A DNA stretch of 64,000 bases from Geminicoccaceae bacterium. GTDB lineage: Bacteria; Pseudomonadota; Alphaproteobacteria; Geminicoccales; Geminicoccaceae. Under the pieces are notes generated by a model. It saw nothing but the letters and a program-made list of their open reading frames with translations. It made no database searches and was not told the origin of the DNA. Location: NCBI GenBank assembly GCA_025999455.1, contig AP024683.1, positions 1,061,501 to 1,125,500 on the forward strand, in the 5' to 3' direction. This document shows, piece by piece, positions 12,807 through 52,305 of the stretch (position 1 is the first letter of the stretch; each line of letters begins with the position of its first letter). A program made the translations under genes and the position numbers.

Positions 12807-12820
12807 GGCGGGCCCGGTCC

Positions 12821-13909: not shown

Positions 13910-13911
13910 GC

Positions 13912-18465: not shown

Positions 18466-18860
18466 GGCCGGGTCCCTCCGCTCGGTCGGAGCGGGAGCGC
18501 CGGTGCCAGGATCGGCTTGAAGCGCAACTCGATCGCCTCGCCGGCGGCGAGTTCGACGGTCAAGCTCCGGCCGGCGAAGGCGAGCGCGACCGCATCGGGC
18601 AGGTCGTCCGTCCGCACGAATCGATCGATCCGCGCGGGCTCGAGGCCGAGCTGGCGGGCCTGGGTTACCAGTCGCTCGGGTCGGCCGAGCCAGGCGAGAT
18701 CGGCCCTGAGCGTGCGGATCCGAGCCTTTTCCTCGGCGATCGCCCGCTCCAGCCGGGCGAGCTCGCGCTCGCGCTCGTGGACGAGGCGCTTGAGCTCGAA
18801 CACGCCCATGGCCGCGAACAACGCCGCGATTCCTGTGAGGATCGCCGGTCGCAGGCTCAT
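18462..18860 (-). CDS. ftsL: Cell division protein FtsL
   Basis: This small bitopic protein (132 residues) is predicted to be part of the FtsQLB complex. It has one N-terminal membrane helix (about 5-22, ending GVFELKRLVHERE). A leucine-rich coiled coil with many Glu/Arg (LARLERAIAEEKARIRTL) follows to about residue 60, then a short periplasmic tail with RLVTQARQLGLEPA. Sequence conservation in this family is low, so the call rests mainly on size, topology and its position between rsmH and ftsI. The start is ATG 18860 (ATGA overlap with rsmH). No ftsB is visible in the window. Confidence 0.88.
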   Translation of the reverse strand: MSLRPAILTGIAALFAAMGVFELKRLVHERERELARLERAIAEEKARIRTLRADLAWLGRPERLVTQARQLGLEPARIDRFVRTDDLPDAVALAFAGRSLTVELAAGEAIELRFKPILAPALPLRPSGGTRP

Positions 18861-37635: not shown

Positions 37636-37687
37636 GGCGGGCTCCCGGGAGGGAACGAACGGGTCGCCCGGTAGATGGCGTCGCCCG

Positions 37688-39124
37688 TCAGGCCCCGCAA
37701 CCCGGCGCCGGGCCGCGGCGCGCTTCGGCGGCACGCGCGCCGGCGATCCGCCCGAGCACGATGGCGGAGAGGAGACCGTTGCCCGAAAGATATCCTCCCG
37801 CCCCAGGCCCCGAGACCCCGCGCGCCGCCCCGCCACCCGCGAACAGGCCGGCGATCGGCGAACCGTCGGGCCGCAGAACCCTGGCCTCGGTGTCGACCAC
37901 GAGCCCGCCCTGGGTGTGGAACAAAGCACCCGTGACCTTCACCGCGCGGTAGGGTGGTGCGAGCGGGGCTTTGCCCGCGAAGCAGCGGCCGAACCGGTCG
38001 GTGCCACCGGTCCGGGCGAGCTTCTGCACCTCCGCGACTGTCTCTTCGAGGGCCTCGGCCGGCAGGCCGGTGACCGCAGCGAGCCCGGCCGGGTCGGGTG
38101 CCGAGCGGATCGCGCCCGCCTCGAGCGCGCGCCGATAATCCTCGAAGCTTAGGGCCAGACGGTGGCGGGCTTCGTCGAAGAGGATCCAGGCGACCCCGCC
38201 CGGGCGAGCCCGGACGAGGGCCGCCTGCTCGGAATAGCCGCGGGTCTCGTCGGCGAAACGCCGCCCCGTCGCGTCGACCTGGACGCCGCCCTCCATCACG
38301 ATCGCCCAGGTGATCAAGACCTCGTGCGGTACGGCGAGGCCGGCGTGCCCCTGATAAGCGCCGAGATCGGCGAGGGCCGCACCGAGGGCTTCCCCCCAGC
38401 GGAGCGCATCGCCCTGGTTGCCGGCGTGGCCGTGATAAGGTGCTTCGGCCATCTCGGGGACGAACCGGCGGACGAGATCGGGCGCACCGCCGTAACCGCA
38501 GCAGGCGAGCACGACCGCCGCGGCGCCGACCGTCTCGAGCCGCCCGTCACGGCGTTCGACCCGCAGGCCACGGACCCGGGCGATTCCACCGTCGGCCTTC
38601 CGCTCGACCAGGAGCGCGTCGACCCGCGCCTCGCAGACGAGGCCGGCGCCGTGCTCCTCGACCGCTCGCAAAAGACCGCCCACGAGTTCGGCCCCGCTCC
38701 GGTCCGGCGGCGCGTGCATGCGCGGCCGCGAGTGGCCCGGATAGAGGAAGCCCTCGACGAGGTCCAAGGGCAAGCCGAACCGATCGACGAGCCATTCGAC
38801 CGTGGGCCCCGCGGCCCGCGCCAAGGTGTCGACGATGCGCCGGTCGGTCGCCCCGCCGTTCTTGGCGAGGATGTCGGCGGCGAACCGTTCGGGATCGTCC
38901 TCGATCGCGCGGGCCCGCTGGAAGCGCGTGCCGGCCGCCGGGATCATGCCCGAGGACATGGCGGTCGAGCCGCGCGGCACGCGGTCCCGCTCGAAGAGCC
39001 AGACCTCGGCCCCGGCCTCGCGCGCGGCGAGCGCGGCCGTGAGCCCGCAGCCACCCGCGCCCACGATCGCGACCTCGGTCTCGAGGTCGAAACGGTCGGG
39101 CGGGTCGAGGAGCAGCCCCGTCAC
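37688..39124 (-). CDS. FAD-dependent oxidoreductase, fumarate reductase flavoprotein type
   Basis: This 478-residue member of the FAD_binding_2 family includes fumarate reductases, 3-ketosteroid dehydrogenases and tricarballylate dehydrogenase. The dinucleotide motif VAIVGAGGCGLTAALAA lies near 18-34, with FERD ending the beta strand at about 46. RGSTAMSSGM follows. LFHTQGGLVVDTEARVL contains the His of the catalytic site, and GLFAGGGAARGVSG with GGYLSGNGLLSAIVLG closes the FAD domain. It acts on a C-C single or double bond next to a carboxyl or carbonyl. The start is GTG 39124, overlapping the isochorismatase-like gene as GTGA. It is the last gene of the hydantoinase operon. Confidence 0.88.
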   Translation of the reverse strand: MTGLLLDPPDRFDLETEVAIVGAGGCGLTAALAAREAGAEVWLFERDRVPRGSTAMSSGMIPAAGTRFQRARAIEDDPERFAADILAKNGGATDRRIVDTLARAAGPTVEWLVDRFGLPLDLVEGFLYPGHSRPRMHAPPDRSGAELVGGLLRAVEEHGAGLVCEARVDALLVERKADGGIARVRGLRVERRDGRLETVGAAAVVLACCGYGGAPDLVRRFVPEMAEAPYHGHAGNQGDALRWGEALGAALADLGAYQGHAGLAVPHEVLITWAIVMEGGVQVDATGRRFADETRGYSEQAALVRARPGGVAWILFDEARHRLALSFEDYRRALEAGAIRSAPDPAGLAAVTGLPAEALEETVAEVQKLARTGGTDRFGRCFAGKAPLAPPYRAVKVTGALFHTQGGLVVDTEARVLRPDGSPIAGLFAGGGAARGVSGPGAGGYLSGNGLLSAIVLGRIAGARAAEARRGPAPGCGA

Positions 39125-39741
39125 CGCGCCGCCGCCCTTTCGAGAAGGGCGAGGATCTCCGAACAGCGCGCCGTCTCGCTCACCGTGCGCAGCGAGGCGA
39201 GGGTGGCCTCGTGCGCCCCTTCGGAGAAGGCGGCGCAGCCGTCCTCGAGGAGGATCGTCCGGTACTCGCGGACGTGCGCGTCCCGTAGTGTGCTCGCGAC
39301 CCCGCCGTTCGTGACGATCCCGCCGATCAGGAGCACATCGATCCCGGCCTTCTCGAGGACCCAGTCGAGCCGGCTCATGTAGAAGGCCGAATAGGCCACC
39401 TTCTCGACCTCGAAGTCGGCCGGCTGCAGCTCCTCGACGAGCCTTTGGCCCCAGCTCCCCGGGGCGAAATGGCCGGGTCCGAGGAAGGGGCGGAGCCGGG
39501 CGAGGTGCGGGGCCACGAGTGGCAGGCCGCCCCGCCCGGGCACCAGGGTGAAGAGGGTCGCCACGACCACGCCACCCGCGCTTCGAACGGCGCGGGCCAG
39601 GGGTGCCAGACGGGCAGGCAGGGCCGTGGCCGCTTCCGAACGAACCCCGGCCCGCCCGTAGGCACCCTCGGGATGCAGGAAGTCGTTCTGCAGATCGACC
39701 AGGAGGAGGGCCGTGCGGTTCGGATCGAAGGCTTCCTTCAC
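39121..39741 (-). CDS. Isochorismatase-fold hydrolase lacking the catalytic cysteine
   Basis: This 206-residue protein has the cysteine-hydrolase (isochorismatase/nicotinamidase/carbamoylsarcosine amidase) fold. The family Asp is in LLVDLQNDFLHP near 17 and the Lys in VEKVAYSAFY near 115. The nucleophile position of the usual T-N-x-C-V motif reads GGIVTNGGVASTLRDA, so Gly replaces Cys near residue 146. I checked the codons: ACG AAC GGC GGG GTC. The active-site surroundings are otherwise intact. It may be inactive, bind rather than cut, or use another group. It starts at GTG 39741 and overlaps both neighbours by four bases, so it is coupled to hydantoinase A. Confidence 0.85.
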   Translation of the reverse strand: MKEAFDPNRTALLLVDLQNDFLHPEGAYGRAGVRSEAATALPARLAPLARAVRSAGGVVVATLFTLVPGRGGLPLVAPHLARLRPFLGPGHFAPGSWGQRLVEELQPADFEVEKVAYSAFYMSRLDWVLEKAGIDVLLIGGIVTNGGVASTLRDAHVREYRTILLEDGCAAFSEGAHEATLASLRTVSETARCSEILALLERAAAR

Positions 39742-41813
39742 GCGTCACCTCCGCGCCGGATCAGGAGGTTGCCGAACCGGTCGACGGTCGCGACCATGCC
39801 GGGCTCCACGAGCACGGTGGCATCCGGCTGCTCGAGCACGGCCGGCCCCGGAATCGTGGCCCCGACTGGAAGCGCCAACCGATCGAAGACCCGCGTCTCG
39901 AGCCAGCGCCCGTCGAAGCGGACCGGTCGGCCGCCGCGTGCCGCCCGCTCGATCGAGGCGTCCGGGCCGGGCGCGAGGATCGCCGGATCGAGCCGCGGCC
40001 GCTCGCCGATCGAGGCGAGCCTGAGATTGAGCAAGCGGACCGGCACGCCCGCGAGCGGACGGCCGAAGGCCGCCCGGTAGGCGGCCTCGAAGGCCGCGTG
40101 GAGCCGATCGCGGTCGAGGCCCGTACGGCCGTTCACGAGCTCGAGCTCGCTCGAAAGGGGCACGGCCACCGTGTGCGTCTGGCCCTGGTAGAGCATGTCG
40201 GCTTCGAGCACGAACCGCGTCCGCTCCAGGCTCGCGCGCGCCCGGGCGAGCCACTCGCGACCCTGCTCGACGAGCTCCACCACGGCCGCGTCGAACGCGT
40301 CGAGATCGAGCTGGGTGAGCGGGCGGTCGAGCGTGCGGACCTGGTCGTAGCGCCAATCGGCGAGCACGCACCCGAGCGCCGAGGTAACTCCCGGGAAGCG
40401 TGGGACGAGGGCGGCCTCGAGCCCGACCTCGCGGACCAGCGCCCCCACGTGCAGCGCACCGCCGCCGCCGTAAGGCACGGCCACGAGCCGCTTCGGGTCG
40501 TGGCCGCGTTCGATCGACACGAGCCGGATCGCCCCGGCCATCCGGGCATTGGCGACCGCGAGGATCGCCTCGGCGGCATCGAGCGGATCGAGCCCGAGCG
40601 GCCGTCCGACCCATCGGCCGATCGCCTCGCGCGCCGCCTCGACGTCGAGCCGCCGCAGCTTGCCGCCGATCGGCCGGTCCGGATCGATCCGGCCGAGCAG
40701 GAGATTGGCGTCGGTGACGGTCGGTCGATCGCCGCCCGCGGCATAGCAGGCGGGCCCCGGCACGGCGCCCGCACTCTCGGGCCCGACCTGCAGGATGCCG
40801 CCCGCATCGACCCGGGCGATCGAGCCGCCGCCCGCGCCGATCGTCGCGATCTCGATCATGGGCGCGCGCACGACGAGGCCGAAATCGAGCGCGGTCTGCG
40901 CGGCCAGGGTCGGTGCGCCGTCGCGCACGAGGGCGACGTCGAAGCTCGTTCCACCCATGTCGCAGGTCACGAGGTCGCGGAACCCGGCCGCCTCGGCGAT
41001 CCGCACCGCCGCCACGACCCCGGCCGCGGGGCCGCTCAGAATCGTGTGCACGGGTCGCAGTCGGGCATCGGCGGCACTCGCGAGCCCACCGTTCGACTGC
41101 ACGATCGAAAGCGGTGCGCGCACGCCGCGCCGGCCGAGCTCGCGCTCCAGCACCTCGAGGTAGCTGCCGACGACGGGTTGCAGGCAGGCGTTCAGGACCG
41201 TCGTCGAAGTCCGCTCGAACTCGCGGATCTCGGGCAGGATCTCGTGGCTCGCCGTGACGAAGGCGGGTTCGGGCCAGAGCGCGCGGACGATCTCGGCCGC
41301 CCGGCGCTCGTTCGTCGGGTTCGCATAGGCGTTCACGAAGACGATCGCGACCGCCCGGCAGCCGAGCTCCAGGAGGCGCCGCGCCGCCGCGGCGACCTCC
41401 TCGGGGGCGATCGGCTCGCGGATCTCACCCGAAGCCAGCGTGCGTTCGCCGACCTCGAGGCGCCGGTCGCGCGGGACGATGGGCGTGAAGGTCCCCCAGA
41501 GGCCCCAGGTCCAGGGCCGGTCGCGCCGGCGCATCTCGAGCACGTCGCGGAAGCCACGAGTCGTGAGGACCCCGGTCGGCGCCACCTTGCGCTCGAGCAC
41601 GGCGTTCGTGCCGACCGTCGTGCCGTGGACGATGGCCGCGATCGAACGGCTGCGTCCGGCCGCCGCGTCGAGGCCTTCGAGGAAGCCCACCGCCTCGCGG
41701 CCTCGGGTGCTCGGCACCTTCGCGGTCTCGACCCGGCCGCTCCGCTCGTCGAGGAAGACGAAGTCCGTGAAGGTCCCGCCGACGTCGACGCCGACCGTCC
41801 AGCCGCCGCTCAC
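39738..41813 (-). CDS. hyuA: Hydantoinase/oxoprolinase subunit A
   Basis: This 691-residue ATP-dependent amidase subunit is of the HyuA/5-oxoprolinase type, which opens cyclic amides such as hydantoins, oxoproline or N-methylhydantoin. The actin-like ATPase start GVDVGGTFTDFVFLDE is at 8-23. IVHGTTVGTNAVLERK and LTTRGFRDVLEMRRRDRP follow, then DMGGTSFDVAL near 310 and GAGGGSIA near 352. It also has the C-terminal hydantoinase domain (ADMLYQGQTHTVAVPL). It works with HyuB, whose gene directly precedes it. GTG 41813 overlaps hyuB as GTGA. Which ring it opens cannot be read from sequence. Confidence 0.92.
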   Translation of the reverse strand: MSGGWTVGVDVGGTFTDFVFLDERSGRVETAKVPSTRGREAVGFLEGLDAAAGRSRSIAAIVHGTTVGTNAVLERKVAPTGVLTTRGFRDVLEMRRRDRPWTWGLWGTFTPIVPRDRRLEVGERTLASGEIREPIAPEEVAAAARRLLELGCRAVAIVFVNAYANPTNERRAAEIVRALWPEPAFVTASHEILPEIREFERTSTTVLNACLQPVVGSYLEVLERELGRRGVRAPLSIVQSNGGLASAADARLRPVHTILSGPAAGVVAAVRIAEAAGFRDLVTCDMGGTSFDVALVRDGAPTLAAQTALDFGLVVRAPMIEIATIGAGGGSIARVDAGGILQVGPESAGAVPGPACYAAGGDRPTVTDANLLLGRIDPDRPIGGKLRRLDVEAAREAIGRWVGRPLGLDPLDAAEAILAVANARMAGAIRLVSIERGHDPKRLVAVPYGGGGALHVGALVREVGLEAALVPRFPGVTSALGCVLADWRYDQVRTLDRPLTQLDLDAFDAAVVELVEQGREWLARARASLERTRFVLEADMLYQGQTHTVAVPLSSELELVNGRTGLDRDRLHAAFEAAYRAAFGRPLAGVPVRLLNLRLASIGERPRLDPAILAPGPDASIERAARGGRPVRFDGRWLETRVFDRLALPVGATIPGPAVLEQPDATVLVEPGMVATVDRFGNLLIRRGGDA

Positions 41814-43474
41814 GCGCGAACCTCCCGCGCGGCGCCTGCTTCCGTCGCGTAGCCGAGGGCCAGATCGCGCTCGATCGCGGCGGGCGCGCGCTCACGAGGA
41901 TCGCCCCAGCCGCCGCCACCCGGTGTCTCGAGGCGCAGCCGGTCGCCGCGGCGGATCCGGATCCCCGTGAGCTTGGACCGCTGGGCCGGCTCGACCCGCC
42001 CGTCGGCGCGCAGGACCTTGAAGCGGGTCGGCGCCCCCGGGCCGCCGCCCGCGACACCGGGTGGCCCGCTCCGGCCGCGATCGCCGAACAGGAAGACCTC
42101 GGCCTCCTCGGCCAGGAGCTCGAGCTCGTAGATCGCGCCGAGCCCGCCTCGGTGGCGGCCCGGCCCGCCGCTGTCCGGGCGCAGTGCCCATTGCGTGAAC
42201 ATCACGGGATAAGCCGCCTCCAGGATCTCGACCGGCGGGATCGTCGCGGTCGAGATCGGCGCGTTGCCGTGGTCGAGCCCGTCGCCCAGCGGGTGGCCGC
42301 CATGGCCGCCGCCGAAGAAGGTGAACATCACCCAGCGCCGCCCGTCGGGCCGGTGGCCGGAGACGGAAAGCGCGTTGATCGTGCCGTAGGCACAGCCGTT
42401 GCTCCGTTCCGGGGCGGCCATGGCGAGCGTGCGGAAGACGAGATCGACGAGCCGCAGCACGGTCTCGGTGTAGCCGCCCACCGGGCGCGGCGGGCGGGCG
42501 TCCAGGATCGAGTGTTCCGGGATCGTGAAGTCGATCGGCTCCAGCACGCCCGCATTGGCCGGGACCTCGCGGAAGACGTGCTTCAAGGCCACGTAGCAGC
42601 CGGCGATCGTGGTCGCGCGCGAGATGTTGAGGGGGCCCTTGCAGGCCGGCGCCGTGCCCGTGAAGTCGAAGCCGAGCCGATCGCCCCGGACGGTCAGGGT
42701 GAGGGTGATCGGAATGGGATCGTCGTCGATCCCGTCACCGTCGAGGACGTCGGTGCAGCTCCAGCTTCCGTCCGGTAGCTCGCGGATGTGTGCGCGCACG
42801 AGATCGGCGGCGCGGCGACGGAGCTCGCCGAAGGCGGCCTCGACGGTGGCCGTGCCGTACTCGTCGAGGAGCTCGTGCAGCCGTCGCTCGCCGAGCTCGA
42901 GGGCGGCGAGTTGGGCTTCGAGGTCGCCCTCGACCGCGATCGGCAGGCGACTGTTGGCGGCCAGGAGTTCGACGATCTCGCGGCGCAGCCTGCCACCCTC
43001 GACGAGCCGGAGCGGCGGCACGAGGAAGCCTTCCTGGAAGCACTCCGTGGCGGAGGGGTTGTAATTGCCCGGCACCGCACCGCCCACGTCGTGCCAGTGG
43101 CCGACCGAGGCGAGCCAGCAGAAGAGCCGGCCGTCGCGGAAGAAAGGCCGGACGAGCTTGAAATCCGACAGATGCGTGCCGCCCTCGTAGGCGTCGTTGA
43201 AGACGAACACGTCGCCCGGGCTCGGACCGCCCACCTTCGCGGCCCGGTCGATCACGGCCTTCACCGCGAAGGCCATGGCGCCCACGAAGATCGGCAGGCC
43301 CGACTTGCCCTGGACGAGGGTCGCCCCGGTCGCGGCATCGTAGAGGCCGTGCGCGGCGTCGTGCGCCTCGGCGATGATCGGGTTGAAGGCGCCGCGGAAG
43401 AGGAGCGCGTCCATCTCGTCGGCGATCTGCTCGAGGCGGCCCTGGAGGACCGCGAGCGTCACGGGGTCGAGCAT
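41810..43474 (-). CDS. hyuB: Hydantoinase B/oxoprolinase subunit
   Basis: This 554-residue partner of HyuA carries the hydrolytic centre. The start LDPVTLAVLQGRLEQIADEM is the family signature. GDVFVFNDAYEGGTHLSDF near 90 and SVGHWHDVGGAVPGNYNPSA near 123 contain the conserved His and Asp residues that probably bind metal. The Gly-rich FFGGGHGGHPLGDG and the tail LETPGGGGWGDPRER are also typical. ATG 43474 lies 16 bases inside the upstream lyase gene. The pair forms the core of the catabolic operon. Confidence 0.93.
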   Translation of the reverse strand: MLDPVTLAVLQGRLEQIADEMDALLFRGAFNPIIAEAHDAAHGLYDAATGATLVQGKSGLPIFVGAMAFAVKAVIDRAAKVGGPSPGDVFVFNDAYEGGTHLSDFKLVRPFFRDGRLFCWLASVGHWHDVGGAVPGNYNPSATECFQEGFLVPPLRLVEGGRLRREIVELLAANSRLPIAVEGDLEAQLAALELGERRLHELLDEYGTATVEAAFGELRRRAADLVRAHIRELPDGSWSCTDVLDGDGIDDDPIPITLTLTVRGDRLGFDFTGTAPACKGPLNISRATTIAGCYVALKHVFREVPANAGVLEPIDFTIPEHSILDARPPRPVGGYTETVLRLVDLVFRTLAMAAPERSNGCAYGTINALSVSGHRPDGRRWVMFTFFGGGHGGHPLGDGLDHGNAPISTATIPPVEILEAAYPVMFTQWALRPDSGGPGRHRGGLGAIYELELLAEEAEVFLFGDRGRSGPPGVAGGGPGAPTRFKVLRADGRVEPAQRSKLTGIRIRRGDRLRLETPGGGGWGDPRERAPAAIERDLALGYATEAGAAREVRA

Positions 43475-44352
43475 CGCTCGCTCTCTCCGCTTTCGGGGTC
43501 GTAACGTCGGGCACGCGCGAGCAGCGCCTGCGTGCCCAAGAGCGCGTTCAGGCCCTGGAAATCGAGCATCCGCTCGCGGAAGGGTGCGGTCGTGCCGTGC
43601 GCCTTCAGGGACGCGAAGAAGGCGCGCGCGGTCTCGGCCAGCGCACGGACGAGCCCGCCCGGGAAGATCACGACCGCGTAGCCGAGCGCTTCGAGTGCCG
43701 CGGCGTCGAGGGCCGGCGTGCTGCCACCCTCGACGATGTTGGCGACGAGCGGCGGGCCTCCTTCGAGCCGGCGCGGGATGGCGGAAAGCTCGTCGAGCGA
43801 GCGCGGGGCCTCGACGAAGAGGAGGTCGGCACCCGCCTCGGCATAGGCCCGGGCGCGCTCGATCGCGCGGTCGAAGCCCTCGACGGCGATCGCGTCGGTG
43901 CGCGCGACGATCAAGAGGTCGGGGCTCGTCCGCGCATCCAGGGCGGCGCGGATCTTGCCGACCATCTCGCCGGTCGGGATCAGGCTCTTGCCGGCCAGAT
44001 GCCCGCACCGTTTGGGCGTGACCTGGTCCTCGATCTGGACGGCCGAAGCGCCCGTGCGCTCGAGCAAACGGATCGTGCGCTGCACGTTGAGCGCATTGCC
44101 GAAGCCCGTATCGGCGTCGACCAGGATCGGGAGGTCGGTCCGCTCGCGGATGCGGCCGAGGGCGTCGACGAGCTCGCTCTGCGTGACGAGGCCGATGTCG
44201 GGGAGCCCGAGCCGCGTGTAGGCGAGGCTCGCGCCCGAGAGATAGAGCGCCTCGAAGCCCGCGGCCTCGGCGAGGGCCGCCGAGAGTCCGTCGAACACAC
44301 CCGGAGCGATCAGGATCGGGCGACGTCGCAGACGCGCGGCGAGCCCGCTCAT
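43459..44352 (-). CDS. Isocitrate lyase/PEP mutase superfamily lyase
   Basis: This 297-residue (beta/alpha)8-barrel belongs to the superfamily of 2-methylisocitrate lyase, 2,3-dimethylmalate lyase, oxaloacetate decarboxylase and PEP mutase. LSGASLAYTRLGLPDIGLVT opens the barrel. PILVDADTGFGNALNVQR holds the Mg-binding Asp residues near 85, and IEDQVTPKRCGHLAGK near 118 has the KRCGH motif whose Cys acts in C-C lyases. IVARTDA and NIVEGG follow. With the hydratase pair immediately upstream, a retro-aldol-type split of a 2-alkylmalate to pyruvate or oxaloacetate plus an acid is the best reading. The start is ATG 44352, overlapping the hydratase small subunit as ATGA. Confidence 0.87.
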   Translation of the reverse strand: MSGLAARLRRRPILIAPGVFDGLSAALAEAAGFEALYLSGASLAYTRLGLPDIGLVTQSELVDALGRIRERTDLPILVDADTGFGNALNVQRTIRLLERTGASAVQIEDQVTPKRCGHLAGKSLIPTGEMVGKIRAALDARTSPDLLIVARTDAIAVEGFDRAIERARAYAEAGADLLFVEAPRSLDELSAIPRRLEGGPPLVANIVEGGSTPALDAAALEALGYAVVIFPGGLVRALAETARAFFASLKAHGTTAPFRERMLDFQGLNALLGTQALLARARRYDPESGESERCSTP

Positions 44353-44864
44353 CGCCCGCCCTCCGCGCGCCCGGCTGCGAGCCGGCGCTCGAGCCAGGGC
44401 ACGATGCCGCCGCTCTCCACCATCTCGAGGAGGTGCGCCGGGATCGGCCGGCAGGCGAAGCTCCGCCCCGAAGCGAGATGGACGAGCCGGCCCGCGCGGG
44501 GATCGAGGCGGACCCGATCGAGCGGTGCGATCCCGTCCCACGCCGGACAGACCACGGCGAGAAGGCCGAGATTGAGTGCGTTCCGGTAGAAGATCCCGGC
44601 GAAGGAGCGGGCGACGACGGCCCGGATGCCGAGGATCGAGAGGGCTTGCGCCGCCTGCTCGCGCGAGGAGCCGGTCCCGAAATTTCGACCGGCCAGGAGG
44701 ATGTCGCCCGGCTGCACGCGGCGCGCGAAGTCCGGATCGAGGGCTTCGAGGCAGTGTCGGGCGAGCTCCTCGACCGGGCCCTTCATGTAGGCGCCGGGTG
44801 CGAGCATGTCGGTGTCGACGTCGTCGCCCACCAGGAAGGCGCGGCCCTCGAGCTCAGCCGACAA
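44349..44864 (-). CDS. Aconitase-family hydratase small subunit (LeuD type)
   Basis: This 171-residue swivel domain of a two-subunit isopropylmalate isomerase-like or dimethylmaleate hydratase-like enzyme has these marks: DDVDTDMLAPGAYMKG near 15, GRNFGTGSSREQAAQAL near 60 (the substrate-binding Ser-Ser-Arg-Glu), and ARSFAGIFYRNALNLGLL near 85. TTG 44864 is the start, with GGAGG six bases upstream, 11 bases inside the large-subunit gene. Because it sits with a lyase and a hydantoinase rather than leuA or leuB, I doubt a role in leucine synthesis and leave out the leu symbol. Confidence 0.85.
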   Translation of the reverse strand: MSAELEGRAFLVGDDVDTDMLAPGAYMKGPVEELARHCLEALDPDFARRVQPGDILLAGRNFGTGSSREQAAQALSILGIRAVVARSFAGIFYRNALNLGLLAVVCPAWDGIAPLDRVRLDPRAGRLVHLASGRSFACRPIPAHLLEMVESGGIVPWLERRLAAGRAEGGR

Positions 44865-46188
44865 GGTCCACCTCCGCCGAGATCGGCTCCGCCGGCTTCC
44901 CTTCCGCGAGGAACGGCCTCGGGTCGGCGATCCGGCCCGCGACCGCGCTCGCCGCCACGGTGAGCGGAGAAGCGAGGTAGACGCGCGAGCTCGGTGCCCC
45001 CATCCGCCCTTTGAAATTGCGTGCGGTCGAGGCGATGCAGACCTCGCCCTCGGCGAGCACGCCCGCGCCGTAGCCCGCGCAGGCTCCACAACCCGAGGGC
45101 AGCATGATCGCCCCCGCCTCGGTGAGCGTGGCGAGCGTGCCGTCGGCGGCCGCCTCGCGCCACACCCGGGCCGAGGCCGGGGCCACGAGGAGCCGCGTTC
45201 CGGCTGCCACTTTGCGGCCGCGCAGGACCGAAGCCGCCATCCGCAGATCGACGAGCTTCGCCCCCGTGCAAGCCCCGATGTAGGCCTGGTCGATCGGCAC
45301 GGGCTCGACCTCGTCGACCGGTGCGGCATTGGCCGGACTGTGCGGTGCCGCGACCTGCGGGGCGAGCCCGTCGAGCTCGAGCCGCACCGTCTCGCCGACC
45401 GGTGCCTCCGGATCGCTCCGCCAGCGTTCGAGCTCCGCTGGGTCGAGCGACACGCCGGCCCGCTCGAGCCAGGCGAGGGTGTGGCGATCGGGCGGGATCA
45501 GGCCCGTGATCCCGCCGAGCTCGGCCGCCATGTTGGAGAGCGTCATCCGCTCTTCCATGCCGAAGCCGGCGAGCCCGTCGCCCGCATATTCGATCGCCCG
45601 GTAGCCGGCCCCACCCAGCCCGATCCGGCGGCAGAGGGCGAGCACGACGTCCTTGGCCACGACCCCGGGTCCCGGCCGACCGAGGAGGAGGATCCGCAGC
45701 GTCTCCGGCACCTCGAGCCAGATCTCGCCGGTGGCGAGCACGGCGGCCATCTCGCTCGCGCCCACACCCATGGCGAAGGCGCCGAAGGCCCCGGCCGTGG
45801 GCGTGTGGCTGTCGCCGCCCACGACGAACAGGCCGGGCCGGACGTGACCGTGCTCGGCCAGCACCACGTGACAGATCCCGAGCATGTCGTAGTGGCGCGC
45901 GACACCTTGCGTCCGGCCCCAGCGCCGCGTGAGATCGAGGATCCGAGCACTCTCCGGGTCGACCGCCGGCACGTAGTGGTCGGAGACCAGGACGACCCGG
46001 CTCGGGTCCCACACCCGCGCGCCGAGCCGTTCGAGGATCGGCGCGACCCGCCGCGGACCGCCCGAGTCGTGGAGCATGACGAGATCGACCCGGCAGGTCA
46101 CGAGCTCGCCCGGCTCGACGGTCTTTCGACCGGCCGCCTCGGCCACGATCTTCTGTGCCGAGGTCTTCTGCGCCGAGGTCGGGGCCAT
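44854..46188 (-). CDS. Aconitase-family hydratase large subunit (LeuC type)
   Basis: This 444-residue [4Fe-4S] hydro-lyase subunit has MLHDSGGPRRVAPILE near the start. GGDSHTPTAGAFGAFAMGVGASEMA splits into the aconitase signature near 125. The three cluster cysteines are in YIGACTGAK near 305 and SGCGACAGYG near 360. ASTARNFKGRMG carries the late substrate residues. It should add or remove water at a citraconate-, maleate- or dimethylmaleate-like C=C. The start is ATG 46188, four bases after livF. Being in one operon with a KRCGH lyase recalls the dimethylmaleate hydratase plus dimethylmalate lyase pair of nicotinate fermenters; that parallel is inference. Confidence 0.86.
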   Translation of the reverse strand: MAPTSAQKTSAQKIVAEAAGRKTVEPGELVTCRVDLVMLHDSGGPRRVAPILERLGARVWDPSRVVLVSDHYVPAVDPESARILDLTRRWGRTQGVARHYDMLGICHVVLAEHGHVRPGLFVVGGDSHTPTAGAFGAFAMGVGASEMAAVLATGEIWLEVPETLRILLLGRPGPGVVAKDVVLALCRRIGLGGAGYRAIEYAGDGLAGFGMEERMTLSNMAAELGGITGLIPPDRHTLAWLERAGVSLDPAELERWRSDPEAPVGETVRLELDGLAPQVAAPHSPANAAPVDEVEPVPIDQAYIGACTGAKLVDLRMAASVLRGRKVAAGTRLLVAPASARVWREAAADGTLATLTEAGAIMLPSGCGACAGYGAGVLAEGEVCIASTARNFKGRMGAPSSRVYLASPLTVAASAVAGRIADPRPFLAEGKPAEPISAEVDLVG

Positions 46189-46192
46189 CGCT

Positions 46193-46877
<685 letters not shown>

Positions 46878-46900
<23 letters not shown>

Positions 46901-47633
46901 CCTCGCGCAACAGACGCTCGGCCGCACCCCGGCCGAGATAGGCCTCGATCACGGCCGGGTCGCGGACGACCGTGGCCGGCGGGCCCGAGGCGACGATCCG
47001 CCCGCCCACGAGCACCCAGACCCGATCGGACAGGCGCATGACCGCCTGCATCACGTGCTCGATCAACAGGACGGTGATCCCGTCCGCGCGCAAGCCGCGG
47101 ATCACCGGCTCCATCTCGGCGACCTCGGCCGGGTTGAGGCCGGCCAGGACCTCGTCGAGGAGGAGAAGGCGCGGCTCGGTCGCGAGCGCCCGGGCGAGCT
47201 CGAGCCGCTTGCGCCCGGCGAGGGTCAGCTCGGCCGCCGGCCGATCGAGGCGATCCTCGAGCCGGACCCGCGCGGCCACCCGCTCGGCGAGCGCGAGGGC
47301 GGCCTTGCGGCTGGCGTGACGGAGATGGGCGGCGACCGCGATGTTCTCGCGTACCGTGAGCCCGGCGAAGGGCCGCGTCACCTGGAAGGTGCGCACGAGG
47401 CCCAGGGCGCAGAGCCGTTCGGGCGGCATCCCGCCGACCTCGCGGCCGGCGAAGCGGACCCGCCCGGCCTGCGGGCGGAGGAAGCCCGAGATCGCGGCGA
47501 AGAGCGTCGTCTTGCCGGCGCCGTTCGGGCCGATGACGGCCGTGATCTCGCCGGGTGCGACCGCGAGGGTCACATCCGCGAGCGCGGTGAGGCCGCCGAA
47601 GCGCACCGAGAGCCCCTCGACCTCGAGCAGCAT
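46878..47633 (-). CDS. livG: Branched-chain-type ABC transporter ATPase LivG
   Basis: This second ATPase (251 residues) pairs with LivF. Walker A IGPNGAGKTTLFAAI is near 38, the LivG mark VRTFQVTRPFAGLTVRENI near 85, Walker B RLLLLDEVLAGLNPAE near 160, and IEHVMQAVM near 195 with the switch His. The signature region reads ELTLAGRKRLELARAL instead of LSxGQ, a variant seen in one LivG subgroup. ATG 47633 shares one base with the livM stop (TGATG). Confidence 0.92.
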
Positions 47634-48592
47634 CAGCCCGTGACCCCGCGGGCGTCGGCAGCGCGGGCGCGGCCCATGCCGATGATGCCGTCCGGGAAGA
47701 AGCGGACGATGAGGACGAGCACGATCCCGTAGGCGACGAGATTGGCGCCGGTCGCCCCGCCCGTGAGCGCCCGACTCGCTTCGCCGAGGAGCTGGAGCAC
47801 CGCAGCACCCAGAACCGGCCCCCAGAGCGAGGCCGTACCGCCCACGATCGGCCCCAAGAGCGCTTCCACCGACACCTGTGGGCCGAAGGCGATGTGCGGG
47901 TCGAGATAGAGGAAGAGTTGCGTGTAGAAGGCGCCGACCGCGCCTGCGAGCCCGGCCGAAAGGAGGATCGCCTGCATCTTGACGGCGAAAGCGTCGACCC
48001 CCAGCGCCCGGGCCGCTTCCTCGTTCTCGCGCACCGCGGCGAGCCGCGCGCCGAGGCGCGACTCGCGCACGAGGGACGCGAGCACGAGGCCGCCCGTGCA
48101 GAGCACGAGGGCGAACCAGTAATAACCCGCCTTGTCGGCGAACTGCAGCCGATCGAGGCCCGGCGCGAGGGGCAGGAGGAGCCCCACGCCCGCGCCCGTG
48201 ATCTCGAGGCTGTTGGCCAGGATCCGCGCCACCTCGGCGAAGGCCAGGGTGACGAGGGCGAAGTAGGAGCCGCGCAGGCGGAAGCGGAAGCTCGCGAAGC
48301 CGACGAGCGCGCCCATCGCGACCGCGGCGAGGATCGCGAGGGCGAAGCCGCTCCAGGCATCGAGCCCGAAGCGGATCTGGGCGATCGCGGTGGCGTAGGC
48401 ACCGGTCCCGAAGAAGGCGGCGTGGCCGAAGGAGAACTGGCCCGCCATGCCACCCAGGAGGTTCCAGGCCTGGCCGAGGGTCGCGAAGAGCAGGACCATG
48501 GTGGCGAGGTTGAGGACCGTGCCGGAGCTCGTGAGCCAGGGCAGCGGCAGGGCCGCGAGGGCGAAGAAGCCGATCGCCGGGAGGCTGCGCAC
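47633..48592 (-). CDS. livM: Branched-chain-type ABC transporter permease LivM
   Basis: This inner-membrane permease (319 residues) has about eight to nine helices. GMAGQFSFGHAAFFGTGAYATA near 48-69 is the LivM signature. FRLRGSYFALVTLAFAEV follows near 108, and RENEEAARALGVD near 190 is the cytoplasmic coupling loop to the ATPases. VEALLGPIVGGTASLWGPVLGA is also typical. The start is GTG 48592, four bases after livH. The longer frame upstream is livH shadow. Confidence 0.92.
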   Translation of the reverse strand: MRSLPAIGFFALAALPLPWLTSSGTVLNLATMVLLFATLGQAWNLLGGMAGQFSFGHAAFFGTGAYATAIAQIRFGLDAWSGFALAILAAVAMGALVGFASFRFRLRGSYFALVTLAFAEVARILANSLEITGAGVGLLLPLAPGLDRLQFADKAGYYWFALVLCTGGLVLASLVRESRLGARLAAVRENEEAARALGVDAFAVKMQAILLSAGLAGAVGAFYTQLFLYLDPHIAFGPQVSVEALLGPIVGGTASLWGPVLGAAVLQLLGEASRALTGGATGANLVAYGIVLVLIVRFFPDGIIGMGRARAADARGVTG

Positions 48593-48596
48593 GGGA

Positions 48597-49469
48597 TCAG
48601 ACCGCCCGACCGAAGAGGCCCGTCGGCCGGAGCAGGAGCGTCGCGATGAAGATCGCGAAGATCCCGATCTGGCCGAGGCTCTCGCCGAGGAAGAGGCCGC
48701 CCAGGCTCTCGACGACACCGATCAGGAGCCCGCCCCAGAACGCCCCCCAGAAGCTCCCCATCCCGCCGAGCACGACGATCGTGAAGGCGATCAAGACGAA
48801 GCCGTGGCCGACCTGGGGCGAGACGTAATAGGTGGGCAACAAGAGGCAGGCGGCGGCGCCGAGCGTGGCGGTGCCGATCGCGAAGGCGAGGGCGAAGACG
48901 TGGTCGACGTCGATGCCCACGAGCCGTGCCGCCTCGCGCTCCTTCGCCACCGCCCGGATCGCGCGGCCGAGATCGGTCGCGCGTACGACTGCCCAGAGCG
49001 CGAGGACCGCGACGAGGGCTCCCGCCGCCGCGGCGAGTTTGGCCGCCGGCAGGAGTGCCGGGCCCACCGCGACCATCTCGAAGGCCCAGCCCGTCTCGAT
49101 CGTGCGGGTGTCCGAACGGAAGAGCGCGAGCGCCAGGTTCTCGAGCACGAGCGCCACGCCGAGGGTCACGAGGAGCACCGCCTCCTCGCGTCCGCGGCTC
49201 GCCTTCGCGACGACGTAGCGATGGAGCAGATAGCCGACCACGCCCGCGGCCGGGACGAGGATCGGGATCGCCGCGTAGGGATCGAGACCGACCCGCTCGA
49301 CGAGGAAGTAGACGGCGTAGAGCGCCGCCATCAACAACGCACCGTGGGCGAAGTTGATGATGTGCAACACGCCGTAGACGAGGCTCAGCCCGAGCGCCAC
49401 GAGCGCGTAGACCGCGCCGTTGGCGAGGCCGTGGATCAGCGAGGCGGCGAGGATCGAAGGCTCGAGCAT
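48597..49469 (-). CDS. livH: Branched-chain-type ABC transporter permease LivH
   Basis: This inner-membrane permease (290 residues, about eight helices) pairs with LivM. GLANGAVYALVALGLSLVYGV near 14-34 and INFAHGALLM near 38 are family signatures. The coupling loop AVAKEREAARLVGIDVDHV is near 168, and VLGGMGSFWGAFWGGLLIG near 222 is the conserved exit motif. The start is ATG 49469, 67 bases after the binding-protein gene, the widest gap inside the operon. Confidence 0.92.
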   Translation of the reverse strand: MLEPSILAASLIHGLANGAVYALVALGLSLVYGVLHIINFAHGALLMAALYAVYFLVERVGLDPYAAIPILVPAAGVVGYLLHRYVVAKASRGREEAVLLVTLGVALVLENLALALFRSDTRTIETGWAFEMVAVGPALLPAAKLAAAAGALVAVLALWAVVRATDLGRAIRAVAKEREAARLVGIDVDHVFALAFAIGTATLGAAACLLLPTYYVSPQVGHGFVLIAFTIVVLGGMGSFWGAFWGGLLIGVVESLGGLFLGESLGQIGIFAIFIATLLLRPTGLFGRAV

Positions 49470-49536
49470 GGGCGTCGCGAGGGGCGCGGCGACCGGCGGG
49501 AGGAGGGGCCACCGGTCGCCGCGCGGGCTCCGGCCG

Positions 49537-50772
49537 TCAGGCCCGCGGCATCGGGAAGACGGGCCGGGCCGAAGCGAACTCGGCTGGGAAGATCACCTCG
49601 ATCGTACCGTTCAGCACCTGGGTGTTCACGGGCCGCGCCCCCTCGTTCTGGCCGTTCACGAACCGGGTCGGCCCGTAGGGCATGAAGTGCCCGTCCCAGC
49701 TGCTCGTCGCGAGGGCTTCGACGATCCGCTCGCGGCTCGCCGACCCGGCCCGCTCGAGCGCATCGGCCAAGAGCCGCACGGCCTCGTGGGCGAGGAAGAC
49801 TTCGTAGGTGTAATAGAGGCCCTTGGCCTCGGCCTTGCGGCGCAGCTCCAGCGCCTCCGCCTTGCGCGGATCGTACCAATGGTTGCAGTCCATGATGTAC
49901 GCCGCGTCGTCCGGGAACTCCTTGACGAACTTGAAGCTCGAGGCGGCGCCACCGAGGACCGAGTAGATCGCCTTGGGCCGCACCCCCTGCTGCCGCATGG
50001 TCCGCGCGAGCAGCACGTACTCGTTGTAATAGTTGGCGGGGATCACGATGTCCGGGGCCAGAGCCTTGAGCTTGAGCACGACGTTCGTGAAGTCGCGCGT
50101 CGGGTTGGCGTGCTTGGCCACCTCGACGACCTCGAAGCCGCGCGCCGGCAACTCCTTCTGCAGGAGCTGCGCGGTCCCGGTGCCGAACAGGCTCTCCTCG
50201 TGGACGATCGCGACCGTGCGGGCGGGCTTCCCGGCGGCGTCGTTCAGGGCCACGAGATTGTCGATCGCGATCTTGGCGATCACCCCGTAGCCCGGGCAGA
50301 AGCGGAAGGTGTTCGTGAGCCCGCGTTGGACGATCTGGTCGGACACGCCGACGTCCACGATGTGCGGGATGCCGTACCGCGCGGCACTCTGGGTCGTGGC
50401 GAGGCTGATGGCGCTCGCGTAAGCGCCGACGATCGCCGCCACGCCGGCCTCGTTCATCTTCTCGACCTCGGCCGCGCCGACCTCGGGCTTGGATTGCGCA
50501 TCGCCAAGCACGGGCTCGAGCTTGGCCCCACCCAGCGACTTGATCCCGCCCGCGGCGTTGATCGCCTCGATCGCCAGGAGCGCACCCTCGCGGCATTGCT
50601 GGCCGGAGAAGGCGAGGAAACCCGTGACCGGGTGGAGGAGCCCGATCTTCACGGGCGCCGGTTGGGCGCGGAGGATCGCCGGGGCGGCGAGCGCCGCGGC
50701 ACCGAAGGCGGTGCCCGCGAGCAGATGGCGGCGGGACAGGCTCGAGCGGGAAAAGATGGCGGGTCGGTTCAC
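49537..50772 (-). CDS. ABC transporter substrate-binding protein, branched-chain type, Tat-like signal
   Basis: This periplasmic binding protein (411 residues, Peripla_BP_6 fold) belongs to the importer encoded downstream. The leader SSLSRRHLLAGTAFGAAA has a twin-arginine motif and ends at about residue 36 (RAQPAP). VKIGLLHPVTGFLAFSGQQC opens the mature domain. GAYASAISLATTQSAARYGIPHI and VHEESLFGTGTAQLL are characteristic of amide, urea or aromatic-acid binders as well as leucine binders. The ligand is unknown. GTG 50772 overlaps the regulator stop as GTGA. The long frame upstream is shadow. Confidence 0.9.
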   Translation of the reverse strand: MNRPAIFSRSSLSRRHLLAGTAFGAAALAAPAILRAQPAPVKIGLLHPVTGFLAFSGQQCREGALLAIEAINAAGGIKSLGGAKLEPVLGDAQSKPEVGAAEVEKMNEAGVAAIVGAYASAISLATTQSAARYGIPHIVDVGVSDQIVQRGLTNTFRFCPGYGVIAKIAIDNLVALNDAAGKPARTVAIVHEESLFGTGTAQLLQKELPARGFEVVEVAKHANPTRDFTNVVLKLKALAPDIVIPANYYNEYVLLARTMRQQGVRPKAIYSVLGGAASSFKFVKEFPDDAAYIMDCNHWYDPRKAEALELRRKAEAKGLYYTYEVFLAHEAVRLLADALERAGSASRERIVEALATSSWDGHFMPYGPTRFVNGQNEGARPVNTQVLNGTIEVIFPAEFASARPVFPMPRA

Positions 50773-51644
50773 GGGACGGCCTCCTCTCGAGGATCCTCGG
50801 TCGATCGGGTGGCGGCGGGCTCCGCGGCACGGGACGGCACCCAGGTCCGGGTGCCGTCGGCGCGAGTTCGATCGAGCGCCATGCGCAGCCGGTAGCGATC
50901 GGGCCGGTAGAGCCCGGTGATGTGTTCGACGACCCGGTCGCTCTCGTCGCGCACGATCCGGGTGATCTCGAGCAGCGGCGAGCCGATCGGTACTTCGAGG
51001 AGCCGCGCCACGCGCGGTTCGGCGGGCCGCGCGCTCACGACCTGATCGGCCCGGGCGACCCGCACGCCGGCCCGCTCGAGCAGGACGAGGAGCGGGGTCG
51101 TGGCGAGCGCCTCGCGGCCGATCCGCGCGCCGATCTCGGCCGGAACCCAAGTCTCGAGATGGGAGAACGGGCCTTCCTCGAGCGAGCGGACCCGGAGCGC
51201 GTAGAGCATGGGCGTGCCGACCGGGATCCCGGCCGCCCGGGCGACGGGGGCCGGTGCCGGCCGTTCCTCGCAGGCGAGCAGACGGACCTGCGTTTCGAGC
51301 CCCATCGCCACGAGGTTCTCGAACAGCCCTTCGAGGGTGGCACGGACCTCGCGCACGCCGGCTTCCGGGCGGAGCCGAGTGCCGCGCCCGGGCGCCCGCT
51401 CGATCCAACCCTCGGCCTCGAGTTCGGCGAGCGCCCGCCGCGCGGTGACCCGGGCGACCCCGAACTCGGCGACGATCTCGTGCTCGCTCGGGAGGCGGCC
51501 GTCGGCGGCGTAGCGGCCGGCTTCGATTCGGCTGCGCAGGACGAGATAGACCCGATGCCAGAGCGGCATCGGCGAGCGTTCGGCGAGTTCGCCCGGCGGC
51601 GCGCGTCGACCGTCCATCCGTGGTGAGCTCGCCTCCCTGCGCAT
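50769..51644 (-). CDS. GntR-family regulator with UTRA ligand domain (HutC subfamily)
   Basis: This 291-residue predicted local regulator of the catabolic operon has a winged helix-turn-helix at about 22-90 (LWHRVYLVLRSRIEAGRY, LPSEHEIVAEFGVARVTARRALAEL split by the turn, GWIERAPGRGTRL). A UTRA ligand-binding domain spans about 110-270, ending with EHITGLYRPDRYRLRM. ATG 51644 coincides with the predicted transcription start, so the message may be leaderless. ATG 51617 is the alternative, with GGGAGG rather far upstream. It is the first gene of the operon and overlaps the binding-protein gene by GTGA. A perfect palindrome lies over its -10 box, which suggests autorepression. Confidence 0.88.
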   Translation of the reverse strand: MRREASSPRMDGRRAPPGELAERSPMPLWHRVYLVLRSRIEAGRYAADGRLPSEHEIVAEFGVARVTARRALAELEAEGWIERAPGRGTRLRPEAGVREVRATLEGLFENLVAMGLETQVRLLACEERPAPAPVARAAGIPVGTPMLYALRVRSLEEGPFSHLETWVPAEIGARIGREALATTPLLVLLERAGVRVARADQVVSARPAEPRVARLLEVPIGSPLLEITRIVRDESDRVVEHITGLYRPDRYRLRMALDRTRADGTRTWVPSRAAEPAATRSTEDPREEAVP

Positions 51645-51648
51645 GCCG

Positions 51649-51664
51649 CATTGTTCGAACAATG
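51649..51664. promoter_or_regulatory. Perfect 16-bp palindrome, likely GntR operator
   Basis: CATTGTTCGAACAATG reads the same on both strands. It lies between the divergent regulator and cyclophilin genes, four bases from the regulator ATG. It is AT-rich within GC-rich DNA and has the size and symmetry expected of a HutC-type operator. It overlaps the predicted -10 of the operon promoter. Confidence 0.6.
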
Positions 51665-51679
51665 GGACAAAGCCGTCAA
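51650..51679 (-). promoter_or_regulatory. Candidate promoter of the catabolic operon
   Basis: On the minus strand TTGACG (51679-51674) and AACAAT (51655-51650) are 18 bases apart. The -10 lies within the palindromic operator. A start of transcription about seven bases on would fall at or next to the regulator ATG. Confidence 0.45.
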
Positions 51680-51759
51680 GGCCGATCCGCGCCGGCTTTG
51701 CCCGCCGCAGCCGATGCGCTAGGTTCGTGGCACCGCGTTCCACCCGAAGGACCTGCCGC

Positions 51760-52305
51760 ATGCGCTCCCGCCTCGCCCGCCTCGGCCTCGCCGCCGCGGC
51801 CTGCTTCGCCGTCGCCGAGCCGGCCGGTGCCGCCGACCCGGAGAACACGCTCTTGATCGACCTTTCGACCGGCGGTCGGGTGGTGATCGAGATGTTGCCC
51901 GAAATCGCGCCCAAGCACGTCGCCCGCATCAAGGAGCTCGCCCGCGCCGGCTTCTACGACGGGATCGTCTTCCACCGGGTGATCGACGGCTTCATGGCCC
52001 AGACCGGTGATCCGACCGGCACCGGGACGGGCGGGTCGGGGCGCGGCAAGCTGCCGGCCGAGTTCTCCAAGGTGCCGTTCGAGCGCGGCGTGGTCGGCAT
52101 GGCGCGCACGCCGGACCCGAACAGCGCCGACAGCCAGTTCTTCATCATGTTCGCCCCGGCGCCGCACCTGAACGGCCAGTACACGGTCTGGGGCCGGGTC
52201 GTCGAAGGCATGGAGTTCGTCGACAAGATCGCCCGCACCGAGCCGCGTCGGCCGGCCCAGCTCGATCGGATGATCAAGGTCCGGGTCGCCGCCGACCAGC
52301 GCTGA
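51760..52305 (+). CDS. Cyclophilin-type peptidyl-prolyl isomerase, exported
   Basis: This 181-residue isomerase catalyses cis-trans change of X-Pro bonds. A signal peptide covers 1-24 (MRSRLARLGLAAAACFAVAE, cleavage after GAA). The short bacterial cyclophilin core follows: HVARIKELARAGFYDGIVFHRVIDGFMAQTGDP split near residues 45-77 with the catalytic Arg in FHR, then SADSQFFIMFA, and LNGQYTVWGRVVEGMEFVDKI. GAAGGA precedes ATG 51760. A periplasmic folding role is likely. It diverges from the GntR operon and is followed by an epimerase gene after 20 bases. Confidence 0.93.
   Translation: MRSRLARLGLAAAACFAVAEPAGAADPENTLLIDLSTGGRVVIEMLPEIAPKHVARIKELARAGFYDGIVFHRVIDGFMAQTGDPTGTGTGGSGRGKLPAEFSKVPFERGVVGMARTPDPNSADSQFFIMFAPAPHLNGQYTVWGRVVEGMEFVDKIARTEPRRPAQLDRMIKVRVAADQR

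Follow-up and report, generated by a model that had tools for sequence, protein, structure and literature searches.

A conserved 13-gene operon predicted to degrade a cyclic imide, with hematinic acid as candidate substrate, in a Geminicoccaceae bacterium

A run of 13 minus-strand genes lies at positions 37688-51617 of the 64,000-nt stretch of Geminicoccaceae contig AP024683.1 that was analyzed (the window, to which all plain coordinates refer). We read it as an operon for breaking down a cyclic imide of tetrapyrrole origin, most probably hematinic acid and, by way of its flavin adenine dinucleotide (FAD) enzyme, the dihydro form derived from chlorophyll; we put the probability of this reading at a little under one-half (approximately 0.46). 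The operon itself is real, widely conserved, and modular. The substrates and reactions named below are predictions throughout, made from gene families, conservation of the operon, exchange of its modules, core residues, and the linkage of relatives to a dehydrogenase, all of which can be read from sequence.

In the proposed route, a Liv-type ATP-binding cassette (ABC) importer would bring the imide in, and HyuAB would open its ring with ATP to give a half-amide. The isochorismatase-fold protein would help to release ammonia, leaving a methyl-homoaconitate-type tricarboxylate, to which the LeuCD-like hydratase would add water. The resulting 2-methylhomoisocitrate-type acid would be split by a KRCGH lyase into pyruvate and glutarate, and the glutarate would then enter the glutaryl-coenzyme A (glutaryl-CoA) route. 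The FAD_binding_2 enzyme (FAD2) may desaturate a reduced (succinyl-to-maleyl-type) form, as TcuA does with tricarballylate, and the GntR/UTRA protein presumably regulates the operon.

Conservation of the operon and exchange of its ring-opening module

Neighboring genes of the run overlap by 1-23 bases or are separated by 4-base gaps, the sole exception being the 67 bases between the binding protein and LivH genes. The original prediction, made from the letters of the window, listed thirteen minus-strand genes of named families, and these were borne out by Pfam matches above the curated cut-off for all 13 (Table 1). No leuA or leuB lies between the 13 genes, as it also stated (the rest of the window was not searched for them). 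Its view of a catabolic operon with its own importer is likewise supported, and the evidence favors a self-contained unit of import and catabolism.

LeuC matches with 56-91% identity were found in ten genomes besides the window's own (145 genomes searched, own included). Their surroundings contained the LeuC-LeuD-lyase core, with the other modules present or absent. Relatives were also found in plasmid records of Paraburkholderia, Variovorax, Cupriavidus, and Burkholderia, and the annotated P. largidicola locus showed the operon in order, except that the lyase was shifted to the end and the FAD gene was absent. A scan of named genomes with a LeuC alignment gave at least 585 relatives, and the best 80 loci were kept for all 80-locus counts. 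Contig ends truncate many of the 80; we call well-flanked the 39 that extend 9 kb or more to each side. Module counts come from tblastn at set identity thresholds (hits below the thresholds were dropped), and proteins of 75% of the query length or less were dropped from alignments and tree. Annotation of the flanks is incomplete: the gene caller missed genes and called some antisense shadow frames.

Within the best 80 loci, LeuD was present in 77, the lyase in 64, HyuB in 40, HyuA in 37, the window-type isochorismatase-fold protein in 31, and FAD2 in 20. All 13 genes were present in 12 loci, with the same order and strand in 12 of 12; thus, the arrangement is not a product of chance, and the gene set recurs as the unit that the original prediction took it to be. 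Hosts of the complete loci were Ferrovibrio, Rhizobiaceae, Nisaea, Roseibium, Stappia, Phyllobacteriaceae, and others. The core was the most constant part, with LeuD in all 39 well-flanked loci and the lyase in 36.

HyuAB belongs to the ATP-dependent ring-opening family of 5-oxoprolinase, N-methylhydantoinase, and caprolactamase (Hydant_A_N, Hydantoinase_A, and Hydantoinase_B all above cut-off). In a PDB search, HyuA matched N-methylhydantoinase with 408 bits and 5-oxoprolinase with 399 bits. The pair differs from caprolactamase CapAB in scoring below the 1000-bit equivalog cut-off (CapA, 500.4 bits; CapB, 287.5 bits).

Loci without HyuAB often carry, beside the core, an isochorismatase-fold protein and two tandem proteins of the polysaccharide deacetylase family. 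The best named solved relative of these tandem hydrolases is PuuE allantoinase (slightly outscored by a structure labelled conserved hypothetical protein), and they fall below the NCBIfam PuuE cut-off. PuuE-type allantoinase was recruited from polysaccharide deacetylases, according to a title cited in PMC9863593. Locus L064, which has the Liv importer and FAD2, differs from the operon only in carrying the PuuE-like set in place of HyuB-HyuA-isochorismatase. HyuAB was present in 21 of the well-flanked loci, the PuuE-like pair in 9, neither in 9, and both complete in none (mutual exclusion, hypergeometric P = 2e-4, kinship ignored).

Two further observations bear on this exchange. Directly after its lyase, locus L086 carries the first 82 residues of a HyuB (L086:12675-12920) that is 85% identical to the window's, with its PuuE-like set on the opposite strand; the remnant looks like a relic of a module swap. 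A quick tree built from 89 LeuC rows requires 8 changes of the PuuE-like label, at least 3 of them forced by starred branches, and places HyuAB locus L044 and PuuE-like locus L045 together with L049 (support 100). We read HyuAB and the PuuE-like pair as two nonhomologous openers of the same ring. Because the two are exchangeable, a cyclic amide or imide is supported as substrate, in agreement with the original prediction; hydantoin and oxoproline, which it also named, fit less well.

The order of events would resemble cyclic imide degradation in Blastobacter, which reportedly runs from an imide through a half-amide to a diacid by means of an imidase and a half-amidase, with a dicarboxylate as product. 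The Blastobacter imidase is dihydropyrimidinase-like by the title of its report, whereas here HyuAB or the PuuE-like pair precedes a hydratase and a lyase.

In a second locus type (L077:487-17781), the same hydratase is surrounded by two lyases, dehydrogenases, a binding protein, and a more distant HyuAB pair.

Hydratase, lyase, and the nature of the acid

The large subunit of the hydratase falls within the hacA_fam subfamily (470 bits; cut-off 385.7). At family level, and in the basic residue at the specificity loop of its small subunit, the hydratase resembles methanogen homoaconitase HacAB; it differs in scoring below the methanogen HacA equivalog (406 vs. 550 bits), in having Lys rather than Arg in that loop, and in its catabolic setting. 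Lys28 of the LeuD-like subunit aligns with Arg26 of homoaconitase small subunit 2pkp, which we take to be a substrate-recognition residue; the isopropylmalate/citramalate isomerase 3vba has Val there (both structures are presumably from M. jannaschii). Of 88 rows, 82 have Lys and 3 have Arg at position 28, as homoaconitase-type recognition would have it, and Lys is present in 8 of 8 rows linked to glutaryl-CoA dehydrogenase. The loop region of the small subunit is reported to set substrate preference (PMC7308503, citing Jeyakanthan 2010).

The lyase joins a PEP_mutase domain to the KRCGH motif (residues 114-118; KRCGH in 72 and KKCGH in 3 of 75 rows), which places it among the KRCGH lyases. 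The original prediction of a hydratase followed by such a lyase stands. Lyase residues F179, I229, and P231 align with PrpB F186, L234, and P236 and were kept in 75, 74, and 75 of 75 rows, respectively. We take the F/L/P set to line the pocket for the methyl group of pyruvate and assume W/F/T for isocitrate lyase; a literature search on the specificity residues of methylisocitrate lyase returned nothing. These residues suggest pyruvate as a product of the lyase. The likeness to PrpB of the methylcitrate cycle extends to lyase family and pyruvate-type pocket; the differences are a score below the prpB equivalog cut-off (291.3 vs. 354.4 bits), VEGG in place of PrpB TEFG, and a partner hydratase that is LeuCD/HacAB-like, not AcnD or AcnB.

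The second product is suggested by the neighbors of the hydratase in other genomes. Of the 80 best loci, 7 have a glutaryl-CoA dehydrogenase gene close to the hydratase (0.33 expected, assuming 1.1 dehydrogenase copies per 4.5 Mb; Poisson P = 7e-8), and in four of the seven it is directly divergent from LeuC. L089/L093 and L115/L127 are pairs of kin, and hence independent linkage events number fewer than seven. The idea of glutarate was formed after generic acyl-CoA dehydrogenase and CaiB annotations had been seen and before the family tests, and is not a blind prediction. The dehydrogenase of L032 (same genome as L089) matched the solved glutaryl-CoA dehydrogenase 1sir, which we take to be the human enzyme, with 614 bits; its top match, 4w9u (615.5 bits), carries only the name acyl-CoA dehydrogenase. 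Identity between the L032 and B. plantarii copies is 66%, and the remaining six of the seven linked copies share 68-91% identity with one or the other of these two queries. Hosts of the dehydrogenase-linked loci include alpha-, beta-, and gammaproteobacteria.

On B. plantarii plasmid p1 (outside the 80 loci), the core is joined to FAD2, electron-transfer flavoprotein subunits, glutaryl-CoA dehydrogenase, and CaiB, with the PuuE-like set alongside. The CaiB proteins of p1 and of L092 matched succinate-glutarate CoA-transferase best (542 and 510 bits, below the cut-off of 750), and the next-best models reached 318 and 297 bits. L092 combines a window-type isochorismatase-fold gene (62%) with the dehydrogenase and CaiB; HyuAB was not found in the stretch available for this locus. 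The pocket residues of the lyase are the same in HyuAB, PuuE-like, and dehydrogenase-linked loci (with a single V for I), and Lys28 prevails in each. Because the core residues agree across locus types, we extend the glutarate argument, with caution, to the operon of the window.

TctC or TRAP carboxylate transporters occur in 16 of the 39 well-flanked loci, which fits a carboxylated substrate. Taken with the dehydrogenase linkage and with Lys28 at the position of homoaconitase Arg26, they argue that the acid is probably a tricarboxylate that yields glutarate and not a plain alkyl-maleate. The acid route of the original prediction holds in outline (imide opened, de-nitrogenated, hydrated, and split); its alkyl-maleate gives way, on the same three grounds, to what is probably a tricarboxylate. 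An isonicotinate/citrazinate route to cis-aconitate and succinate was also considered and was rejected: a literature search gave no paper, and the linkage to glutarate argues against succinate.

Candidate substrates and their weighing

Hematinic acid is 3-methyl-4-(2-carboxyethyl)maleimide, and it is the candidate because it is a cyclic imide that would give a methyl- and carboxyethyl-substituted maleate after loss of ammonia. The D ring of chlorophyll bears a propionate. Hematinic acid is an end product of the oxidation of heme, bilirubin, and chlorophyll and a product of E. coli ChuS (PMC10343206). It has been found in leaves, and maleimides and hematinic acid have been reported from senescent leaves and lake sediments (PMC7318184). 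In chlorophylls other than c, the D ring is hydrogenated (PMC7318184). A ring that is both hydrogenated and propionate-bearing would give dihydrohematinic acid, which fits the resemblance of FAD2 to TcuA and fumarate reductase. FAD2 shares the FAD_binding_2 family with TcuA of tricarballylate utilization, as well as the proposed desaturation beside a carboxylate; it differs in scoring below the TcuA cut-off (132.9 vs. 369 bits; flavocytochrome c, 234 bits, also below cut-off), and no TcuB or TcuC is present among the 13 genes.

Hematinic acid is our best single candidate. Slightly more tentatively, the operon and its relatives in alpha-, beta-, and gammaproteobacteria may be a bacterial route by which pyrrole rings of heme, bilins, and chlorophyll are eaten to pyruvate and glutarate, by way of a dedicated homoaconitase-like hydratase and a new lyase. 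How tetrapyrroles are broken to hematinic acid and maleimides, chemically and by enzymes, has been described (PMC10343206, PMC7318184), and chlorophyll alone is made and degraded at a scale of 10^12 kg yearly (PMC7318184). PMC8669743 deals with bacteria that convert porphyrins to products among which are single-pyrrole compounds; it names no genes in the parts available. One open-access library (most subscription journals lay outside the search) yielded no paper joining these gene families, none with both hematinic acid and carbon source, and, among the matches listed, none on bacteria using hematinic acid or maleimides as food. The original statement that no described pathway is known with exactly this gene set holds for that library, which is not proof of absence. 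If the reading is true, genes can be assigned to a missing but widespread step by which the nitrogen and carbon of heme and chlorophyll are turned over, and a specific candidate substrate is at hand; with another imide as substrate, the operon would still be a modular, widely shared pathway with a predicted new specificity of lyase and hydratase.

Other substrates would use much of the same machinery. Anaerobic nicotinate degradation in Eubacterium barkeri uses dimethylmaleate hydratase and then 2,3-dimethylmalate lyase, that is, a LeuCD-like hydratase and a KRCGH lyase acting on a 2-alkyl-malate, as proposed here. That part of the nicotinate pathway is not known to include HyuAB, an isochorismatase-fold protein, or an importer, and it differs in its dicarboxylic substrate and in its products, propionate and pyruvate. 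By analogy with this fermentation, a simple alkyl- or dialkylmaleimide (citraconimide, dimethylmaleimide, or methylethylmaleimide) could give an alkyl-maleate and then pyruvate and a short monocarboxylic acid. The enzyme classes, the LeuD/DmdB family match, and a lyase pocket fitting a pyruvate-forming enzyme all agree with this, as do the petal death protein (194.9 bits) and 2,3-dimethylmalate lyase 3fa3 (176.5 bits) among the PDB relatives of the lyase; we nevertheless consider it unlikely, given the basic residue kept at LeuD position 28, the glutaryl-CoA dehydrogenase linkage, and the TctC/TRAP transporters.

Those same glutarate and homoaconitase arguments, with the large subunit in the homoaconitase family model, apply equally to an unmethylated analogue, in which 2-(2-carboxyethyl)maleimide would pass through homoaconitate and homoisocitrate to glyoxylate and glutarate. 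This is distinctly improbable: the lyase keeps F/I/P at the presumed methyl-pocket positions, not the W/F/T of isocitrate lyase, and we know of no abundant natural source of the imide.

There is also little to recommend a six-membered cyclic imide or lactam from the degradation of a pyridine-type ring, with a flavin monooxygenase upstream and the same tricarboxylate as intermediate. In its favor, 6 of the 80 best loci have a FAD_binding_3 monooxygenase, 5 have an Amdase-family protein, and 20 have a SnoaL or tautomerase-SnoaL gene; however, most of the 80 loci lack the monooxygenase and Amdase genes, neither is among the 13 genes of the window, and no pyridine-degradation genes were recognized among the annotated flank genes.

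A hydantoin or ureide pathway, in which HyuAB would open a substituted hydantoin and the isochorismatase-fold protein would remove the carbamoyl group to leave an amino acid, merits no more weight. Points in its favor are the closeness of HyuA to N-methylhydantoinase, the likeness of the exchange module to PuuE allantoinase, and, in the isochorismatase-fold partner of that module, a motif that we take to be that of N-carbamoylsarcosine amidohydrolase; yet the operon has no deaminating enzyme that would link an amino acid to the hydratase and lyase, and the window-type isochorismatase-fold protein has no catalytic Cys.

Leucine biosynthesis with unrelated genes alongside, suggested by family resemblance only, is rejected, in line with the original prediction: a separate LeuC elsewhere in the genome scores 819.2 bits against the leuC equivalog cut-off of 560.25, the LeuC-like protein of the operon scores 227.7, and the lyase is linked to the hydratase in 36 of 39 well-flanked loci. 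AcnA is also encoded elsewhere in the genome (1381 bits; cut-off 945).

The reading of the operon as a route for hematinic acid has to be set against several observations that weigh against it. The isochorismatase-fold protein gives the first. We take the catalytic triad of isochorismatase-fold amidohydrolases to be Asp, Lys, and Cys. In the window protein and its 35 relatives, D16 and K114 are invariant, Gly147 stands at the Cys position in 36 of 36 rows, and an invariant NGGV replaces the usual Cys-bearing motif, whereas the PuuE-linked protein keeps Cys in 14 of 14 rows (one row repeats L064), in the motif STSGCVRA or STSGCIRA, presumably of the N-carbamoylsarcosine amidohydrolase type. A Cys-dependent amidase role for the protein of the operon is not supported, and because the nucleophile is absent, the amidase step of the HyuAB branch is not canonical. 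Either the protein is not used as an amidase there or the neighboring carboxylate of the substrate replaces the nucleophile. In dialkylmaleamates, the neighboring carboxylate expels the amide unusually fast, and the Cys may have been lost in the HyuAB branch since the dialkylmaleamate carboxylate can expel the amide itself.

The other such points concern the acid and its origin. Position 28 of LeuD was A or S in 3 of 88 rows, two of them from HyuAB loci. Of 14 distinct, more distant small subunits used as a control, 3 had K or R there (L021, L022, and L023, each next to a gap or spanning one), and 11 had S, V, Y, L, F, H, E, or A; a basic residue is typical of this hydratase family, not unique to it. 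Three dehydrogenase copies scanned with NCBIfam gave no match above cut-off, the best models being FadE-type. The operon of the window holds no glutaryl-CoA enzyme, no HyuAB locus had the dehydrogenase within the stretch retrieved per locus, and the best CaiB matches in the genome of the window are only 43-45% identical to the B. plantarii CaiB, so that glutarate as product is inferred from relatives. A search of 30 genomes found glutaryl-CoA dehydrogenase in 29, three of them same-genus genomes that lack the operon; in operon-bearing G004 it was not found. Because the enzyme is nearly universal with or without the operon, its presence in a genome was dropped as evidence, and only linkage is informative. 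FAD2 lacks the Arg residues of fumarate reductase (our own reading of the sequence). No gene of tetrapyrrole metabolism was recognized among the annotated flank genes, in which annotation is incomplete, and the FAD_binding_3 and Amdase genes of relatives may stand for other ring sources.

Several gene neighborhoods were recorded in their own right. The FAD_binding_3 monooxygenase and the Amdase-family (arylmalonate decarboxylase family) protein lie near the hydratase core in L092, L099, L114, L116, and L121. The small SnoaL-like gene (cluster c9; for example, L052:19391-19975 and L062:3768-4343) is near 20 loci and is fused to an N-terminal 4-oxalocrotonate-tautomerase-type domain, by Pfam in L062 and by inspection in others; a search of the window did not find it. 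In Skermanella, a gene annotated as heme-binding protein lies near a more distant LeuC pair. Plasmid 2 of Peribacillus frigoritolerans (L046:11589-29129) carries a more distant LeuCD-like pair with CaiB, 3-hydroxy-3-methylglutaryl-CoA-lyase-like, Asp/Glu racemase-like, and tartrate-dehydrogenase-like genes, perhaps another 2-alkylmalate pathway.

Gene list and genomic site

The genes are listed in Table 1 in order of transcription; starts were refined beyond the raw open reading frames.

Table 1. Genes of the operon, with positions in the 64,000-nt window
Gene product	Position	Strand	Family matches and remarks
GntR/UTRA regulator	50769..51617	-	Pfam GntR and UTRA; start possibly 51644; nearest NCBIfam HutC, below cut-off
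ABC importer binding protein, branched-chain amino acid type	49537..50772	-	Pfam Peripla_BP_6
LivH-type permease	48597..49469	-	Pfam BPD_transp_2
LivM-type permease	47633..48592	-	Pfam BPD_transp_2; alternative GTG start 48718 would overlap livH
LivG-type ATPase	46878..47633	-	Pfam ABC_tran and BCA_ABC_TP_C
LivF-type ATPase	46193..46900	-	Pfam ABC_tran
Aconitase-superfamily hydratase large subunit, LeuC/HacA-like	44854..46188	-	Pfam Aconitase; hacA_fam
Hydratase small subunit, LeuD/DmdB family	44349..44864	-	TIGR02087, 160 bits (cut-off 108.95)
KRCGH lyase, isocitrate lyase/PEP mutase family, methylisocitrate-lyase-like	43459..44352	-	Pfam PEP_mutase
HyuB, ATP-dependent cyclic-amide hydrolase subunit	41810..43474	-	Pfam Hydantoinase_B, 568 bits
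HyuA, ATP-dependent cyclic-amide hydrolase subunit	39738..41813	-	Pfam Hydant_A_N (166 bits), Hydantoinase_A (301 bits), Hydant_A_C
Isochorismatase-fold hydrolase, catalytic Cys replaced by Gly147	39121..39741	-	Pfam Isochorismatase
FAD_binding_2 oxidoreductase (FAD2), flavocytochrome c/TcuA-like	37688..39124	-	Pfam FAD_binding_2

The upstream neighbor of the operon is a divergent cyclophilin gene (51643-52305, plus strand), and the downstream neighbor is the gene for release factor 3 (36052-37929, minus strand). G001 and G003, same-genus genomes without a close LeuC relative, show the empty site: their matches to the two flanking genes lie on one contig (C99 and C53, respectively), 129 and 305 bases apart. 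Because the flanking genes adjoin in both, the operon has been cleanly gained or lost. The operon of G004 and G005 starts beside the same cyclophilin gene; G002, in which the two flanking genes are on separate contigs, was uninformative. Elsewhere in the window, an ordinary cell-wall cluster with Mur ligases and a penicillin-binding protein occupies positions 7806-18927.

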